From positions 1 through 50,150 of IMG/VR virus record IMGVR_UViG_3300046524_000192: a DNA stretch of 50,150 nucleotides; one strand, 5' to 3'. The stretch is from a virus. Position numbers and translations under genes: made by a program. Positions 14,755-49,406 of the stretch are shown in pieces. A model generated the notes under the pieces. It was given only the letters and a program-made list of their open reading frames with translations, was not told where the DNA came from and did not search any database. Within the stretch, counting starts at the first letter, position 1. The number at the start of each line of letters is the position of its first letter.

Positions 14755-16212
14755 TTACCAGTCAAAGACCTGCGCCCTGCGCGGACCGAGTAACTCGTTG
14801 AAGGCGTCGGAAGCGGCGTCGACCTGGTCGTCATGCGTGCCGAGCGGAAACATCTCCAGCTCGTCAGTAAATGCTTGATTCCAGCTCGCTCGCATCATCT
14901 TCACGTTGCGGCCTTCGCACTGCGCGGCGAACGCGGCAGCACGGGTGTCCTTCGGTCCGGTGGGGCGGACAGCTTTGATCTTGAAGCCGGCGAGCCGGCG
15001 GATGAAGCTCTGGGCCTGTGACTTTCCAGCCTGGCCCGGATCTTGTGGGATGATGATCTGCACAGACCGGCCGTCGTCCTTGGCGGTCTGGAAGATCTTG
15101 TTTTCGACCTGCAGCGGAGAGCCGCGGAAGCGGATGACGTTCTCGATGTAGAAGACGCCGTTGACGTCCTTCGACATCAGGACTCCTACCGTCCAGTCGC
15201 CATCAGACGATGCAGCCAGATCCCACGCCCGCACGCGGACGCGCTTGGCTGGCACCTCGGCAGGCGGAGCATCGAACCAGGAGGCCTTGAACATGCCGCC
15301 GTCAGCCGACATGGGCTGCTGCTGATACAGTGCGGAGAACGAACGCTCGCCAAGAACCTCCTGGCGATCCATCAGCGCTTCGTAGGAGAAGCGGTTCGGC
15401 GCCAGCGGCTCTTTGGGTTTGCGGCGGAGCGCGTCGAAAGGAACCGTTCCGTCATCGAGGAGGATGTCCTCCTTGGTCTCGGCGGTCTTCTTTACGATCG
15501 GGAGCGCCGGCAGCGTGAGAATGTCCCACGGCAGACCCTTGCCTTCCTTCATAAGCTCAATCAGGCGGCCGGCGATGTCGTCGTAGTGCCAGCGCGTCAG
15601 CGTGAGCACGATCGCCGCATCTTCTTCGAGACGGGTGTAAACGACGTCGCGGTACCAATCCCATTGGTCGCTGCGGAAGCCCGCGGACTCGACCTCTTTT
15701 CGATCTTTCACGGGATCGTCGATCAGGAAGAGATGCGAGCCCTTACCGGTGGTGCCCGAGCCGACGCCGACCGCGTAATACTGGCCGCCCTGATCCAGCT
15801 GCCAGTCATCTGCGGCGCGCTGGTCGGTGCGGATATTGACCTCGGGGAACAGCGTCTGAAACTGCTCGCCCTTGATGATGTCGCGAACGTTTCGGCCGAA
15901 CGAGGTCGCGAAGTCGGCGTTGTACGATGCCGAGATAACGTTGCGGTCCGGGTGCTTGGCCATGTAGTAGGCCGGGAAGCGCCGGGTCGACAGCTCACTC
16001 TTGCCGTGCCGCGGCGGCGCGAAGATCATCAGACGCTTGATCTCGCCGCGCTCGACCGCCTCCAATTTCTTCGCCACGATGTGGTGAAAGGGATCGGCGT
16101 AGTATTTCGGCAGGGTGTAGGTGGTGAAGTCGATGAGGTTGTCGCGGCCACGCCTGCGATGCAGAACCTCAGCCGCCGCCTCCTCAGGGGAGACGTCGTT
16201 GTCAAAATCCAC
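14755..16212 (-). CDS. terL: Terminase large subunit
   Basis: 485 aa from a GTG at 16212 with GAGAGAAATC before it. The open frame continues upstream, but that part crosses the tRNA-Gly and cannot be coding. Walker A is FAPPRHGKSE (about 64-73) and Walker B is LFLIDDPVKD. The nuclease domain has RVRAWDLAASSDGDWT and, at the end, THDDQVDAASDAF with paired Asp. The enzyme cuts concatemers and drives DNA packaging with the portal downstream. Confidence 0.95.
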   Translation of the reverse strand: MDFDNDVSPEEAAAEVLHRRRGRDNLIDFTTYTLPKYYADPFHHIVAKKLEAVERGEIKRLMIFAPPRHGKSELSTRRFPAYYMAKHPDRNVISASYNADFATSFGRNVRDIIKGEQFQTLFPEVNIRTDQRAADDWQLDQGGQYYAVGVGSGTTGKGSHLFLIDDPVKDRKEVESAGFRSDQWDWYRDVVYTRLEEDAAIVLTLTRWHYDDIAGRLIELMKEGKGLPWDILTLPALPIVKKTAETKEDILLDDGTVPFDALRRKPKEPLAPNRFSYEALMDRQEVLGERSFSALYQQQPMSADGGMFKASWFDAPPAEVPAKRVRVRAWDLAASSDGDWTVGVLMSKDVNGVFYIENVIRFRGSPLQVENKIFQTAKDDGRSVQIIIPQDPGQAGKSQAQSFIRRLAGFKIKAVRPTGPKDTRAAAFAAQCEGRNVKMMRASWNQAFTDELEMFPLGTHDDQVDAASDAFNELLGPRRAQVFDW

Positions 16213-16229
16213 GATTTCTCTCGGATGGT

Positions 16230-16304
16230 TGGAGCGGACGGCGAGGATCGAACTCGCGACGAACGGTTTGGAAAACCGGGGCTCTACCGCTGAGCTACGT
16301 CCGC
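16230..16304 (-). tRNA. tRNA-Gly (anticodon UCC)
   Basis: On the minus strand the 7-bp acceptor stem GCGGACG/CGTCCGC is perfect. The D-arm is GCTC-AGCGGTA-GAGC, the anticodon loop TTTCCAA, the T-arm GCGAG-TTCGATC-CTCGC. Discriminator U is followed by encoded CCA (16230-16232). One mismatch sits at the outermost anticodon-stem pair. It reads GGA codons and lies between the small and large terminase genes. Confidence 0.93.
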
Positions 16305-16434
16305 ATGTGAAAACCCCACGCCCGCTGGCCAAGCGGATCGTCCTGTCAATTCAGGACTTCTGGTGCGGTCGATCGTCACCGGGTACCGAGGTCTCCGGCT
16401 GCCACGATCGATCCCGTCAGGGGTCTTGTTTCGG

Positions 16435-23585: not shown

Positions 23586-23601
23586 TTTGCACGAATGCTA
23601 A
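23586..23601. repeat. Dispersed palindromic element just downstream of a minus promoter
   Basis: Plus strand TTTGCACGAATGCTAA. It begins a few bases past the expected start of transcription of the promoter at 23612-23640, a position where a bound protein would block elongation or initiation. Confidence 0.6.
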
Positions 23602-23611
23602 TCTACAAAAA

Positions 23612-23640
23612 CAAATACAGGGGTGGGGCCGTTTTGTCAA
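23612..23640 (-). promoter_or_regulatory. Candidate sigma70-type promoter for the minus cluster
   Basis: On the minus strand TTGACA (23640-23635), a 17-bp spacer, then TATTTG (23617-23612). The -35 is perfect and the -10 weak (3 of 6). It faces the coupled small genes and the structural operon. Confidence 0.45.
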
Positions 23641-23853
23641 ATCCGGCCCAGCCCGCCGCCGGCCTGGGATCCAGATCAGGGCGAAGCCCTCGCCGGCCAT
23701 GGCGATCAGGATGATGATCGAGGTGGCCGTTTTGATCACGATCCTGATCAGGATGCCGGTCCGCAGCGCAGCGTCGCGCGTGCGTAAAGCATGGTAGTTC
23801 TCTATCTGGCAGTTCTATCTGGTAGTTAGGCGGCACCAGGTGCCTATGCGAAT

Positions 23854-23916
23854 GTCGTGACGTGCCGCTGCGGTGTCGTGAGGTGCCGCTGCCAGGTCGT
23901 GAGGTGCCGCTGCGAA
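23854..23916. repeat. Three 21-bp tandem repeats
   Basis: Units starting GTCGTGA at 23854, 23875 and 23896, each with core GTGCCGCTGC and 1-4 differences. Perfect period of 21 bp, two turns of helix, so a bound protein would see each unit on the same face. It borders the end of the 94-aa gene. Confidence 0.75.
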
Positions 23917-23917
23917 A

Positions 23918-24202
23918 TTACCTGTCGCGGGCCGGTTTTGAACGTCTCCAGACCGGATCTTTCGACCGCGCGTGATAGACCGGTTCCAGCGGGTGGAGCG
24001 CCTGCATCAGCCCGATCCTGGCGAAGTCAATTGGTCCACCATCAGCAGCCAGCAGCAGAGCCTCAGCGGCGGTCTGCCAGACAACCTTCGCCTGTTCTGC
24101 CTTGGGTAGCTTCAGGATGTAGGCCCGGGCATCGCTCAGCGTCCTCAGGGTGCCACCCTTCGGCAGCGGCACGGGTTCATGGAAGGACGCGGACCAGGAC
24201 AT
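23918..24202 (-). CDS. Rhizobial-type small hypothetical protein
   Basis: 94 aa from the ATG at 24202. MSWSASFHEPVPLPKGGTLR, then LSDARAYILKLPKAEQ and WQTAAEALLLAADGGPIDFA, RIGLMQALH. This W-S-A-S-F-x-E-P-V-P-L-P-K-G pattern is familiar from short Bradyrhizobium and relatives' chromosomal hypotheticals and suggests acquisition from, or exchange with, the host. No function is known. It is the most upstream gene of the minus half. Confidence 0.65.
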   Translation of the reverse strand: MSWSASFHEPVPLPKGGTLRTLSDARAYILKLPKAEQAKVVWQTAAEALLLAADGGPIDFARIGLMQALHPLEPVYHARSKDPVWRRSKPARDR

Positions 24203-24352
24203 GCGGCAACGATACCAGCCGGCCGTCACCCGCGCGAGTCTATCTCAGGGCGAAGCCCTCGCCGCTCCCGATGATCCGTAAACAGATCAAGATGGCACCT
24301 TATGATCCCCTTATGGATCATTTGGTCACCTGATGATGCCGCGCGCCGCACT

Positions 24353-24405
24353 CACCAGGCCACAGCCTGGTTTTCAGCACGACGAAACCAGGCTGTGACC
24401 TGGTG
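24353..24405. repeat. Long inverted repeat, 21-bp arms with 11-nt loop
   Basis: Arms 24353-24373 and 24385-24405 are complementary at 20 of 21 positions. The one mismatch is C-A on a plus-strand RNA but G-U on a minus-strand RNA, so a minus transcript would fold it completely. No U-tract follows on either strand. Confidence 0.85.
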
Positions 24406-24412
24406 CGATGAA

Positions 24413-24438
24413 CCTCCCGAACAGGAGGGGGTCTTTTA
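24413..24438 (+). terminator. Terminator-like hairpin
   Basis: CCTCC and GGAGG (5 bp, 24413-24417 and 24424-24428) with CGAACA loop, followed by GGGGTCTTTTATT. Short stem, so weak. Confidence 0.35.
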
Positions 24439-24449
24439 TTGCTGGGGTA

Positions 24450-24490
24450 CCCTTGAAGGCACATTAAGCCGGATAAGGTGCTTTCAAGGG
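24450..24490 (+). repeat. 13-bp hairpin in the divergent region
   Basis: CCCTTGAAGGCAC (24450-24462) pairs with GTGCTTTCAAGGG (24478-24490), with one G-U pair when transcribed on the plus strand (C-A on the other). Loop 15 nt. Confidence 0.7.
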
Positions 24491-24632
24491 CGCATTCGCG
24501 GGCCGCAACGAATGGCACACCACCACAGCCAGTCAGAGCTGCAGGATGGGAACGGTATCCCAGCACAGGCGGAAATGGCCTTTTAGGGATGGGAAATATG
24601 AGGATGGGGCCCCCCAAGGGGTGGTGGGGGTC

Positions 24633-24706
24633 TAGGAAAAAAAACTCGCTCACTCCTAGGACTGCAGTCTCATTTTCAAAAGGAGTATGTTCCTAGCGTC
24701 TAGGAA
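24633..24706. promoter_or_regulatory. CTAGG dyads and palindromes
   Basis: CTAGGA at about 24632, TCCTAGGA around 24655, GACTGCAGTC (24660-24669, perfect palindrome) and TTCCTAG-CGT-CTAGGAA (24690-24706). Clustered dyads of this kind look like operator or origin-protein sites. Confidence 0.5.
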
Positions 24707-24770
24707 TATGATCCAAGCTGATAGTTTTCCTACACTGTGGCAGGATGTCGCAGCTGCAAACTTTCTTGGC

Positions 24771-24811
24771 TTGGGACGTCGTTTGCATTGCTTCTAAAAT
24801 TCGAATGCAAA
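24771..24811 (+). promoter_or_regulatory. Candidate plus promoter overlapped by the dispersed palindrome
   Basis: TTGGGA (24771-24776), 18-bp spacer, TAAAAT (24795-24800). A wide copy of the element, TTTGCATT (24782-24789) and AATGCAAA (24804-24811), straddles the spacer, the -10 and the expected start. A protein bound there would repress the promoter. It would drive the structured RNA region and the plus genes. Confidence 0.45.
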
Positions 24812-24823
24812 GACTCACTCGCT

Positions 24824-24916
24824 ATGCTTCTAAGTCATTGATTTTGTTTGTATTTTCTTGTGCGACTGAGACTTACAAACTGTGTCTTTGATGCTTGTAA
24901 GCTATTGATTTTGTTG
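24824..24916. repeat. AT-rich direct repeat pair
   Basis: ATGCTTCTAAG...ATTGATTTTGTT at 24824-24849 and ATGCTTGTAAG...ATTGATTTTGTT at 24891-24916 agree at 22 of 26 positions, spaced 67 bp apart. The tract 24780-24965 is much more AT-rich than its surroundings, as in a duplex-unwinding element. Confidence 0.65.
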
Positions 24917-24965
24917 AGTTTTATTTTCATGTTTTCAACCGTGGTTTAACTGTTATTGTTTGTTT

Positions 24966-25836
24966 GTGAGCAACGCGGTTGTGTTGCTCGCGGGCAGGAC
25001 AAGGCCCGGGCAGACAAGGCCCTTCTTGTTCCCCTCTTTCCAAGAGGGTTGGAGCTAGACAAAGGAGACTGATTTTCACGGGGTTGCTACCCTAGTACCT
25101 GTAGCGATAGCCCTGCATTCTAGGCCCTTCGTGGCGTTGCCGTATGGCAGATTGCAGAGTGTGTAGTGAGGGAACGGACATAGGCAACCATGGCGCAACG
25201 TAGCACCCTAAGGCGGGATTGCCCTTGCATCATGGTTCGCGAGCCCCGGCCTTGAATGGCCAGTGATATCAGCGGATTTTGTACCGGCTATTGGACTAGG
25301 CCGACGACGAGTCGGAAAAATAGCATCGGAGAGCCCTATTCAGTTAGGTATACCGTTGCCTGCTAGTATCGGAAATTATGGCTGCAACCTTGTACGGGTT
25401 TAAGCTTTGCGGTGGATAAGGCCCCTTTGGGCGTTGTCGGACGACTATCAATTGCAAAGCTTTCACTTCCAAGCTTCTACAGCGCGCCTTCACTCAGTGT
25501 TGGCTAGGCCTCTGCAGTCATGGTTTACCGGCTTCTGGACCCTCTCCCTATACGGCAATGGCATGCTTTGGGACGGCCAGAAGCGGCGGGCATAACCTTG
25601 CGACCATAGCGCTAGGCACTAGCCGGATAGGCGCGACGCGCAACCTTTGCAGCGTTTCCAGTCCGGCCGAATTGCGAGTAGCAAACTAGGCGCGATCGTT
25701 ACCCCGCCTGACAAAACCCCCATCCAAACCACGACGAGTCCGAGTGTCATCTCAACCGGCGCTCGGACTCTGTCTGGTGTTTGCTTATCCGGCAAGCATC
25801 TCAAGGGTGCTTACCCGATAGGCGCAACGTCTATCG
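24966..25836 (+). ncRNA. Candidate large structured non-coding RNA (about 870 nt)
   Basis: No ORF with coding character. Strong helices in order: 24966-24974 with 24983-24991; 25032-25038 with 25042-25048; 25086-25090 with 25101-25105; 25186-25192 with 25231-25237; 25284-25292 with 25319-25329 enclosing 25301-25305 with 25311-25315; 25402-25410 with 25454-25462 (9 bp) enclosing 25415-25418 with 25446-25449 and two hairpins (25421-25432, 25433-25445); 25531-25538 with 25577-25584; 25611-25623; 25631-25641; 25688-25692 with 25705-25709; 25728-25744 with 25762-25778 (16 bp, two bulges); 25794-25798 with 25808-25812; 25816-25821 with 25831-25836. G-U pairs in the first and in the 25433-25445 helix favour the plus strand. 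It could be a free ornate RNA or the leader of the gene at 25870. Confidence 0.55.
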
Positions 25837-25869
25837 CATTCGTCCCCCATGTCAAACAGGAGTCCAACT

Positions 25870-26529
25870 ATGTCGAAGACCACTGCCGTTAAGGAAGCCA
25901 AGGCCGCAACCTTCACTCTCATTACCGGCACTGCCGATATTGAGAAGGCCCTCGCGTCGATCAAGACTCGAGGTGCGGCCCTGCAACAGGACATTCACAA
26001 GGCCGGGTGCTCCGTGCTGGCGCATGTCGGCAAGCACAAGGATATCCGCCTCGTCACCAAACTGCTGGACGCCATGCCCGACATGGCCCGCAAGAATGCC
26101 ATCAAGGCATGGTTCGAGTCGTTCGGTCCGGTCATCTTCGCGGAAGATGGCAAGATCGCCTATCACCCCGCCACCTCTCTGCGCCTTGGCGACGCCATGG
26201 CCATGCCGTTCTGGCGCTTCAAGCCTGAGCAGGCCTACGTCCCGATGAACGTCGGGCAGGCGCTGGACCAGCTCATCAAGAAGCTGGAAAAGGACCACAA
26301 GGAGACCGGCAACAGCCATCTGGCGATCGTCGCTGGCCTCTCCAAGCTGCGCGAGCAGTGCCCGGAAGAGGGTGACGTCCGCGCTGCCGCCAATGCCAAG
26401 GTCGCAGCAGCCGTGACCGCTGCCCCCGCGCCCAAGGCCACCCGCAAGGCCAAGGACGCCACCACTGCGCCCGTCGCCGACGTCGTCGCAACCGACGCCA
26501 CCACTGCGCCGGAAGCGATCGCCGCCTAA
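25870..26529 (+). CDS. Conserved phage early-type protein, unknown function
   Basis: 219 aa from the ATG at 25870 with AGGAG seven bases upstream; an earlier frame start was not used. HKAGCSVLAHVGKHKDIRLV (about 41-60), then DAMPDMARKNAIKAWFESFG and FWRFKPEQAYVPM, form a pattern I associate with a protein common in podo- and siphophage early or replication-adjacent regions. The C-terminal 45 residues are Ala/Thr/Lys-rich and low complexity. It is the first plus-strand gene after the structured region, so it may be its regulated target. Confidence 0.65.
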   Translation: MSKTTAVKEAKAATFTLITGTADIEKALASIKTRGAALQQDIHKAGCSVLAHVGKHKDIRLVTKLLDAMPDMARKNAIKAWFESFGPVIFAEDGKIAYHPATSLRLGDAMAMPFWRFKPEQAYVPMNVGQALDQLIKKLEKDHKETGNSHLAIVAGLSKLREQCPEEGDVRAAANAKVAAAVTAAPAPKATRKAKDATTAPVADVVATDATTAPEAIAA

Positions 26530-27082: not shown

Positions 27083-27201
27083 CCCCATCCCCTCACGGTG
27101 AAGCGCCTGCCTTGCATCACACGGGATGCCGCACATGCGGGCACCGTGAGGGTACCCATCCCGCCAACAGCATCGACTCTCCCAACGCCACAGGTGCGCC
27201 C

Positions 27202-27441
27202 ATGATGACCCAGACCGAAGCCCGCCAACGTCTCAACGTCCACCGCATGACGCTGCGCCGTACCGCGGCCGGAGACTACCGGGTCGCCTTCGCGGATCGG
27301 TCCGACAACGAGGCCTCCGCCTACTACACCGACGACCTCGACGACGCCGTCCTAACCGGCGCCCTGATGCGCAATCCCCGCCCGAAATCCGTCCTCCAAC
27401 CCGATCGAATGCAAACGAAAGCCAACCATGTCCAATCGTGA
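27202..27441 (+). CDS. Hypothetical protein, 79 aa
   Basis: ATG at 27202 (ATGATG), AGGTG in front. MMTQTEARQRLNVHRMTLRR has a possible HTH-like helix start (ARQRLNVHRMTL), then YRVAFADRSDNEASAYYTDD and DLDDAVLTGALM. The gene ends 14 nt inside the next small gene and carries a motif copy in its last codons. Could be a small DNA-binding protein. Confidence 0.55.
   Translation: MMTQTEARQRLNVHRMTLRRTAAGDYRVAFADRSDNEASAYYTDDLDDAVLTGALMRNPRPKSVLQPDRMQTKANHVQS
27403..27417 (+). repeat. Dispersed element inside the end of the 79-aa gene
   Basis: GATCGAATGCAAACG, ten bases before the ATG of the 39-aa gene. This copy lies in coding sequence, one of few that do. Confidence 0.55.
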
Positions 27442-47363: not shown

Positions 47364-47393
47364 TTGATCGGCCCTGATCAAACGGAGATTGAA

Positions 47394-49406
47394 ATGGACT
47401 TCCTGAAATTCAAGAACGCGGTGGCCAAGCAGTTCGACACGCTTAGCAAGAACCAGCTGTTCTGCACCGCGGTCGAGAAGGATGACCTCTGGGCCACCTA
47501 TATCGAAAGCTTCCCGGCCGGTACCAACCCAATCTTCCGGGAGCGTACCGAGCATGACTGCAGCTGTTGCCGCCAGTTCATCCGGGCGATCGGCAACGTC
47601 GTTGCCATCGTGGACGGCAAGCCCGTCAGCATCTGGGACACAGTGATCGCCGAACCGGCCTACCAGACGGTGGCCGATGCCATGGCCAAGCTCGTGAAGA
47701 GCAAGCCGATCTCGGACGAGTTCCTCAGCTCCGAGCGCAAGGCCGGTACCGACAAGACCTACGAGGACATCGTCGACAAGGTTCAGACCTGGTCGCACTT
47801 CTTCGTCAACATCCCGGCGGTCAACTTCTGCACCGGAAAGGACATCGCCACCAAGCTGTCAGATACCCGGTCGACGCACGACGTGTTCCTGCGCGGACTT
47901 ACCGAACTGACGCTCGACTCAGTGGATACCGTCCTGGAGCTGATCGCCCAAAACTCGCTCTACCGGGGTTCGGAATACAAGAACACGCTGCACACGTTCC
48001 GCAACCTGAAGTTCGAGTTCGAAAAGCTGCCGGTCGCCGACCGCGATGCCTATGTCTGGTCCAAGACCAAGATGACGCATGGCGCGATTGCCCGTGTCCG
48101 CAACACCTCGATCGGCACCATGCTGATCGACCTATCAGCCGGTGTTGATCTCGAAGATGCTGTCCGCAAGTTCGAGACATCGATCATGGCGCCGTCGAAT
48201 TACAAGCGGCCGACCGCCCTCGTCAGCAAGGCGATGGTGGAGAAGGCAAAGGCGACCATCGCCGAGCTGGGACTGACGTCGGCGCTCGATCGCCGCTTCG
48301 CCACGCTGACGGACATCAGCATCGAGAACATCCTGTTTGCCGATCGGGATGCCCGTAAGGTCATGACGGGCGACGTTTTCGACGCCATCAAGACCAAGGC
48401 ATCGAGCCGCAAGCTGGACAAGGTCGAGGAAATCCCGATCGATAAGTTCATCGCTGAGGTTCTTCCGAAAGCCGAGTCGATCGAGGTCATGTTCGAAGGC
48501 CGGCACCAGAACAACCTGGTCAGCCTGATCGCCCCTGTCGATCCGGTCGCGCTGCCGCTGCTGAAGTGGGACAACAACTTCTCGTGGTCCTACAACGGCG
48601 ACATGGCGGACTCCATCAAGGAGCGCGTCAAGAAGGCCGGCGGCAACGTCAGCGGCGACCTGTGCTGCCGACTCGCCTGGAGCAACCTCGACGACCTCGA
48701 TTTCCACATGCGAGGGCCATCCCACGAGCACATCTACTACGGCGCCAAGCAGGCCCCGCGGACTCTTGGTCGGTTGGACGTGGACATGAATGCCGGCATG
48801 GGCAAGACCCGCGAGCCCGTCGAGAACATCTTCTACGGGGATCGCCGGCTGATGCGGGAGGGCGAGTATCGCCTCCAGGTGAACCAGTTCACACGCCGCG
48901 AGAACACCAACATCGGCTTCGAGGTCGAGATCGACTTCATGGGGACGATCTGGAAGTTCGCCTACGACAAGCCGATGAAGACCGGCGAAACCGTGACCGT
49001 GGCGACGTTCCGTTACAGCCATGCCAATGGCGTTCAGATGATCGACTCGCTGCCGGCAACGACGGCGTCCAAGACCATCTGGAGCATCCCGACGCAGGAG
49101 TTCCACAGGATCAACCTGATGATGCTGTCGCCCAACTTCTGGAACGACCGCGGCATCGGCAACAAGCACTACTTCTTCATGCTCGACGACTGCCTCAACG
49201 ACGGCTCGGCGCGTGGCTTCTTCAACGAGTTCCTCCGGGATGAGCTGACGCCGCATCGCAAGGTCATCGAGATCGTCGGCTCGAAGATGAAGACCGAGCA
49301 GTCGATCAACCAGCTCTCTGGTCTCGGCTTCTCAAGCACTCAACGCAATGACCTCATGGTGCGGGTCAAGAGCAACTTCAACCGGACCGTCAAGGTCGTA
49401 TTCTAA
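47394..49406 (+). CDS. Large protein with DUF2135/YfaP-like C-terminal domain
   Basis: 670 aa from the ATG at 47394 with ACGGAG upstream; the earlier in-frame ATG at 47364 lacks an SD. The N-terminal 400 residues are helical and unrecognised. The C-terminal part, RLAWSNLDDLDFHMRGPSHE ... IYYGAKQAP ... LDVDMNAGMG ... GEYRLQVNQFTRREN, fits the L-x-W-x-x-x-x-D-L-D-x-H-x-x-x-P ... G-x-Y-x-V-x-V-x-x-F pattern of DUF2135 (YfaP) domains. It may be a surface-active or assembly factor that works with rIIA/rIIB-like proteins. Confidence 0.7.
   Translation: MDFLKFKNAVAKQFDTLSKNQLFCTAVEKDDLWATYIESFPAGTNPIFRERTEHDCSCCRQFIRAIGNVVAIVDGKPVSIWDTVIAEPAYQTVADAMAKLVKSKPISDEFLSSERKAGTDKTYEDIVDKVQTWSHFFVNIPAVNFCTGKDIATKLSDTRSTHDVFLRGLTELTLDSVDTVLELIAQNSLYRGSEYKNTLHTFRNLKFEFEKLPVADRDAYVWSKTKMTHGAIARVRNTSIGTMLIDLSAGVDLEDAVRKFETSIMAPSNYKRPTALVSKAMVEKAKATIAELGLTSALDRRFATLTDISIENILFADRDARKVMTGDVFDAIKTKASSRKLDKVEEIPIDKFIAEVLPKAESIEVMFEGRHQNNLVSLIAPVDPVALPLLKWDNNFSWSYNGDMADSIKERVKKAGGNVSGDLCCRLAWSNLDDLDFHMRGPSHEHIYYGAKQAPRTLGRLDVDMNAGMGKTREPVENIFYGDRRLMREGEYRLQVNQFTRRENTNIGFEVEIDFMGTIWKFAYDKPMKTGETVTVATFRYSHANGVQMIDSLPATTASKTIWSIPTQEFHRINLMMLSPNFWNDRGIGNKHYFFMLDDCLNDGSARGFFNEFLRDELTPHRKVIEIVGSKMKTEQSINQLSGLGFSSTQRNDLMVRVKSNFNRTVKVVF

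Follow-up and report, generated by a model that had tools for sequence, protein, structure and literature searches.

A conserved large RNA, almost certainly of a new family, upstream of a phrog_1448 gene in temperate phages of Bradyrhizobium-type hosts

To our knowledge, very few bacterial or phage RNAs have the size and intricacy of the one described here, and no phage one has a settled function. The OLE RNA adjoins the oapA gene. The put RNA of phage HK022, which is about 70 nt long and consists of two hairpins, is located just downstream of the early promoters and acts in antitermination. GOLLD is a large phage and prophage RNA with a more conserved 3′ part, a looser 5′ part, and no known function, and GOLLD, ROOL, and OLE all form RNA-only assemblies (PMC12286853). 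In phage ICP1, an ∼800-nt RNA from an ∼1-kb ORF-less gap is the most abundant transcript (PMC7567579).

We analyzed a 50,150-nt stretch of viral DNA (IMG/VR record IMGVR_UViG_3300046524_000192; the window). Its left arm, on the minus strand, encodes the portal, terminase, major head, and baseplate proteins, and its right arm is on the plus strand. Several records with related head proteins (78 to 82% identical) are 108 to 128 kb long, which makes the window a piece of a larger, myovirus-like phage. A gene-free stretch of ∼870 nt separates the two divergent arms, and a first-pass annotation had read it (positions 24966 to 25836) as a large ornate RNA. This reading was borne out by the plus-strand fold and by covarying helices found in three relatives. 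The limits held less well: the last hairpin ends near 25821, and the 5′ end of the RNA probably lies somewhat before 24966. The features of the region are as follows.

24573 to 24640, no strand assigned: block AAATGGCCTTTTAGG ... AAAAAAAA, left edge of the gene-free region
24828 to 24848, plus strand: promoter-like motif, copy 1, TTCTAAGTCATTGATTTTGTT (exact motif count)
24895 to 24915, plus strand: promoter-like motif, copy 2, TTGTAAGCTATTGATTTTGTT (exact motif count)
24940 to 25830, plus strand: structured RNA, both ends approximate, the 5′ end being placed from where the motif lies and the 3′ end from the last hairpin
25084 to 25107, plus strand: hairpin HB of the 5′ domain, TTGCTAC/GTAGCGA, with hand-registered equivalents in the relatives
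25113 to 25157, plus strand: helix HA of the 5′ domain, CTGCA/TGCAG, registered by hand
25248 to 25261, plus strand: hairpin H1, GGCC-UUGAAU-GGCC (GCCC/GGGC in G007)
25295 to 25367, plus strand: three-way junction closed by helix J (25295–25299/25363–25367) and enclosing H2, H3, and H4
25301 to 25315, plus strand: H2, with loop GACGA in three of the four sequences
25323 to 25359, plus strand: H3, in junction J
25335 to 25348, plus strand: H4, CCUA-UUNAGU-UAGG, in junction J
25374 to 25386, plus strand: 5′ strand of the 13-bp helix H5, with eight double-sided changes
25402 to 25462, plus strand: 9-bp helix and junction named in the first-pass annotation, in the variable insert of H5; not itself conserved
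25513 to 25525, plus strand: 3′ strand of H5, pairing with 25374 to 25386
25531 to 25584, plus strand: hairpin H6, with a variable base of 7 to 9 bp and a nearly invariant loop, GCAAUGGCAUGCUUUG, at 25555 to 25570
25585 to 25708, plus strand: H7 domain (25585–25590/25703–25708) with an inner arm; UAG...CUA at the base is conserved
25736 to 25770, plus strand: stem H10, 11 bp, paired in all four sequences, with a conserved CUGUCUG after it
25785 to 25821, plus strand: hairpin H11, the last before the gene, with no U-run after it
25870 to 26529, plus strand: first early gene, a phrog_1448 family member of unknown function that immediately follows the RNA in all four phages

The RNA shares some traits with each of the described systems and differs from each in others. 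Like GOLLD, it is a large phage or prophage RNA with a better conserved 3′ part and a looser 5′ part. However, GOLLD is often near tRNA genes (a frequent, not a strict, feature), whereas the nearest and sole tRNA of the window is 8.7 kb away; in addition, the RNA is at the head of the early operon, and the GOLLD covariance model does not match it. It resembles ROOL in being phage borne, several hundred nucleotides long, and rich in stems, but it has no match to the ROOL model and its genomic context differs. As with OLE, a large RNA lies beside one particular protein gene, here phrog_1448. The carrier, however, is a phage rather than a Gram-positive extremophile, and the OLE model does not match. 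By description, the ICP1 RNA is similar in size and also comes from an ORF-less phage gap of ∼1 kb with no tRNA nearby, but it adjoins the lysis cluster of a Vibrio phage. The put RNA is likewise a structured RNA just downstream of early promoters (here, a promoter-like motif), but the present RNA is more than 10 times larger. The tRNA of the window is a tRNA-Gly(TCC) on the minus strand (16230 to 16304), and the 5′ end of the terminase ORF as listed (14755 to 16332) overlaps it; the true start of the terminase is therefore probably further downstream.

The first-pass annotation had recognized no GOLLD or ROOL consensus, and the covariance search that it proposed against GOLLD, ROOL, OLE, and other families agreed with this. 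With Rfam 15, the stretch had no match at the gathering score, and nothing meaningful was obtained for the window at an E value of ≤10 or for the relatives at an E value of ≤5. Searches by name for GOLLD (RF02032), ROOL (RF03087), and OLE (RF01071) gave no match; no control genome matched in the ROOL and OLE searches, for which the Rfam covariance scan is the stronger test. The absence of an Rfam match points to a new RNA family, and no published description of it was found in the literature within reach, mostly nonsubscription papers. Separately, four relatives carry a skipping-rope RNA (RF02924) beside a tRNA match (G008, G009, G011, and G012; L159 14435 to 14553, L160 14839 to 14957, L161 15100 to 15218, and L162 15883 to 15997), and the window has no match to this family at the gathering score.

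DNA searches gave clear matches in 3 of 29 related records (G007, G017, and G003), and in each the RNA homologue sits upstream of a phrog_1448 gene. The four RNAs are about 840 to 920 nt long and strongly diverged overall, with near-invariant islands: CCTATTNAGTTAGGTA, CGGANATTA, ACCYTGTACG, GCAATGNCANGCTTTG, GAACTAG, and CGCTCGGASTSTGYCTG. The family comparison thus rests on four independent sequences, those of the window, G003, G007, and G017. The G003 region is also present in Bradyrhizobium hipponense NZ_VSTH01000051 and the G007 region in an 8.3-Mb contig of a Bradyrhizobium-genus genome; the carriers are temperate phages of Bradyrhizobium-type soil hosts. A nucleotide search of GenBank phages and plasmids found no homologue. 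Two weak matches from a search of the genus Bradyrhizobium (G127 and G233) were due to chance, since the model did not extend into them. Two motif scans of viral contigs returned only known members and chance matches, the three best scoring of which looked like coding sequence on reading, and a covariance model, R1, found only known members in 392 genomes of the family around the Bradyrhizobium assembly and 25 phage records.

The strongest evidence for an RNA came from compensatory changes. Covariation was scanned in a sequence-only alignment, considering gap-free stems and requiring pairing in all four sequences. H5, a gap-free 13-bp helix (25374–25386/25513–25525), was paired in every sequence and had 8 double-sided changes, and the 11-bp helix H10 (25736–25746/25760–25770) was likewise paired in all four, with two double-sided changes. 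By comparison, none of 60 column shuffles gave a stem of at least 6 bp with two double-sided positions. The annotation had taken G-U pairs to mark the plus strand as the RNA; when the minus strand was read as RNA, with C-A in place of G-U, no conserved covarying helix was left. Of the helices that it had named, the long stem at 25728 to 25778 exists, and the 11-bp core of this stem is the H10 helix paired in the four homologues. The 9-bp helix at 25402–25410/25454–25462 also exists but falls in the least conserved insert, with no covariation support of its own. The best-supported helix, H5, was absent from those named.

Compensatory changes were also seen in J, H2, H6, H7, HA, and HB when these were registered by hand, a procedure biased toward finding pairs, so that these helices are supportive and not decisive. 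For example, helix J reads CTAG/CTAG, CGCG/CGCG, and CTCTC/GAGAG in the relatives, and the HA equivalents are GCGTTC/GAACGT, GTCATG/CATGAC, and CGATCTAG/CTAGATCG. In a shuffle control, H6 gave P values of 0.03, 0.11, 0.0008, and 0.005 for the four sequences. A kissing-loop or palindromic role for the H6 loop (GCAUGC in three sequences, AAGCUU in G017) was considered and dropped; the palindromes are out of register. Constrained folds gave a common plan of H1, the three-way junction J with H2 and H3/H4, H5 around a variable insert, H6, H7, H10, and H11. For three of the four sequences, the constrained core fold came to within about 2 kcal/mol of the free minimum; for G017, it lay 7 kcal/mol above.

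Folding energy pointed the same way with less weight. The plus strand of 24966 to 25836 folded at −355.7 kcal/mol, compared to −316.8 ± 7.1 kcal/mol for dinucleotide shuffles (z = −5.47), the minus strand gave a z of −2.20, and the three homologues gave −3.3, −3.2, and −5.1. However, a control stretch of the same window (23600 to 24470) also folded unusually well (z = −4.2). Energy alone is therefore weak evidence, and the comparative evidence decides. The annotation's claim that the stretch lacks a coding frame stood: there is no gene-like ORF from 24590 to 25849, and the window ORFs of at least 50 amino acids inside the stretch had no tblastn match in any relative. No conserved protein frame was found, the longest stop-free runs (60 to 101 codons) varying in strand and length among the four sequences. 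Two of the outcomes that the annotation had named as refuting it, relatives lacking compensatory changes and a reading frame conserved through the stretch, were thus looked for and not seen.

Repeats were also noted in and near the control stretch. A unit of ∼20 nt (GTCGTGAGGTGCCGCTGC) occurs three times in tandem at 23855 to 23915, and a long inverted repeat, CACCAGGCCACAGCCTGGTTTT...AAACCAGGCTGTGACCTGGTG, lies at 24350 to 24410, to the left of the gene-free region. A dispersed palindromic element, CAGGGCGAAGCCCTCGC, is found at 23678 and 24248 and in L158 and L228, in gene-poor stretches of the window and its relatives. Elsewhere, 47364 to 49406 encodes a 680-amino-acid phrog_1735 protein of unknown function that is 50 to 56% identical to proteins of giant Caulobacter phages and about 50% identical to those of Serratia phages of about 160 kb.

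Upstream of the RNA is a tandem promoter-like motif, and downstream is phrog_1448, the first early gene. The 21-nt motif TTSTAAGNNATTGATTTNNTT has exactly two copies in the window (24828 and 24895), both directed toward the RNA, against 0.00 expected. Looser copies occur upstream of the RNA in G003 and G017, a pair lies upstream of the early gene of the RNA-less G001, and G007 has no clear copy. The tandem motif looks like the early promoter region, though it does not form a canonical sigma-70 site. No terminator was found between the RNA and the phrog_1448 gene, and no U-run follows the last hairpin; the RNA and the gene are therefore probably on one transcript. In all, we consider it likely that the RNA heads the early transcript.

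The phrog_1448 proteins of G007, G017, and G003 are 54 to 60% identical to that of the window. The protein has no Pfam domain, and its predicted fold (mean pLDDT, 67) had no PDB match at an E value of ≤0.001 and matched only unnamed phage proteins, which gives no hint of RNA binding. In the set of 29 related records, the RNA and phrog_1448 co-occur in the same three, as in the window, and neither occurs alone. Farther afield, some Autographiviridae phages have phrog_1448 homologues although no copy of the RNA could be detected in them, and the 1.2- to 1.6-kb gaps upstream of phrog_1448 in Rhizobium Autographiviridae held no RNA homologue. The RNA phages are scattered on a head-protein tree (four changes), a patchy distribution that is suggestive, the tree being weakly supported with one starred branch. 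Recognizable versions of the block at 24573 to 24640 lie ahead of the early region both in RNA-bearing and in RNA-less relatives. Another gene family is found in this neighborhood in eight records that lack the RNA (G001, G006, G008, G009, G011, G012, G013, and G016), and a search of stretches of the four RNA phages did not find it there. In two of the eight, G001 and G006, comparable blocks lie upstream, and after them come a short leader of simple hairpins and then a gene of this other family. Since RNA-less phages have a different gene near this place, the RNA and phrog_1448 appear to be swapped together, as one unit, at the start of the early operon; the next early gene (27112 to 27441) occurs in some RNA phages and some RNA-less ones. 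The G001/G006 leaders (L163 2175 to 2500, minus strand, and L228 3240 to 3498, plus strand), which come just after the early promoter region, have hairpins CTCTGGAACCAAGTGTTCCCAGAG versus CTTTGAAGCCAAGCGGTTTCAAAG, in which compensatory changes seem to maintain the pairing; they may possibly be put-like or other early leader RNAs.

Together, these data make it nearly certain that the stretch encodes a conserved structured RNA, read from the plus strand, that belongs to a new family. The control stretch that folds well too would speak for a G+C-rich spacer folding by chance. This is scarcely credible, however, because no shuffle matched the compensatory changes of the four phages and because the alignment at the 13-bp helix has no gaps. 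Action as DNA, as a replication origin or a regulator-binding region, would fit the divergent arms, the turn of the GC skew between them, and the AT-rich repeats at 24790 to 24960. These repeats, however, are upstream of the RNA, and a DNA function leaves unexplained why the conserved pairing depends on the G-U pairs of one strand; we regard it as improbable. A diverged self-splicing intron or ribozyme, to which the size and multidomain fold might point, is slightly less probable still, given that no Rfam family, group I and group II introns included, matched at the above E values and that the element lies between genes and not inside one.

How the RNA works is a closer question. An autonomous structural RNA, which we give about an even chance, is favored by the size, the many domains, the conserved loops, and the analogy to GOLLD, ROOL, OLE, and the ICP1 transcript, so that any GOLLD- or ROOL-like function is argued by likeness. 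Against it, with no terminator before the gene, the RNA may never be a separate molecule. It may instead stay in the early mRNA as a cis-acting leader controlling antitermination, translation, or stability, a possible though less probable reading. Such a leader fits the position at least as well as an autonomous RNA does: the RNA keeps a fixed place, after the promoter-like motif and before the first early gene, no terminator-like U-run precedes the gene, the pairing with phrog_1448 is constant, and the short leaders with hairpins that occupy the corresponding site in the RNA-less G001 and G006 suggest a leader role. On the other hand, known leaders of this kind come nowhere near the ∼870 nt, the many domains, and the conserved loops of this RNA, and the Shine-Dalgarno region of phrog_1448 falls outside the conserved core. 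On our favored account, transcription would start at the tandem motif (24828 to 24915) immediately upon induction or infection, and the RNA would form the head of an early transcript that also carries phrog_1448, the two traveling together as one exchangeable module. The RNA would fold on its own and might serve a particle-like structural use in the manner of GOLLD, ROOL, or OLE; it could be cut from the early mRNA, and the phrog_1448 protein or a host protein may be its partner.

This RNA family is absent from Rfam, occupies an unusual place at the head of an early operon, and is tied to one protein gene. Natural phages exist both with and without it, and two of the four that carry it also occur in Bradyrhizobium genome assemblies, so lysogens may exist in culture and the role of the RNA would be directly testable. 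More speculatively, and in our view rather doubtfully, the RNA could join with the phrog_1448 protein in an immediate-early phage ribonucleoprotein, or could form a multimeric particle by itself, and temperate Bradyrhizobium phages would swap the module against another early gene. If so, this would be a new class of phage takeover machinery built around a large RNA.
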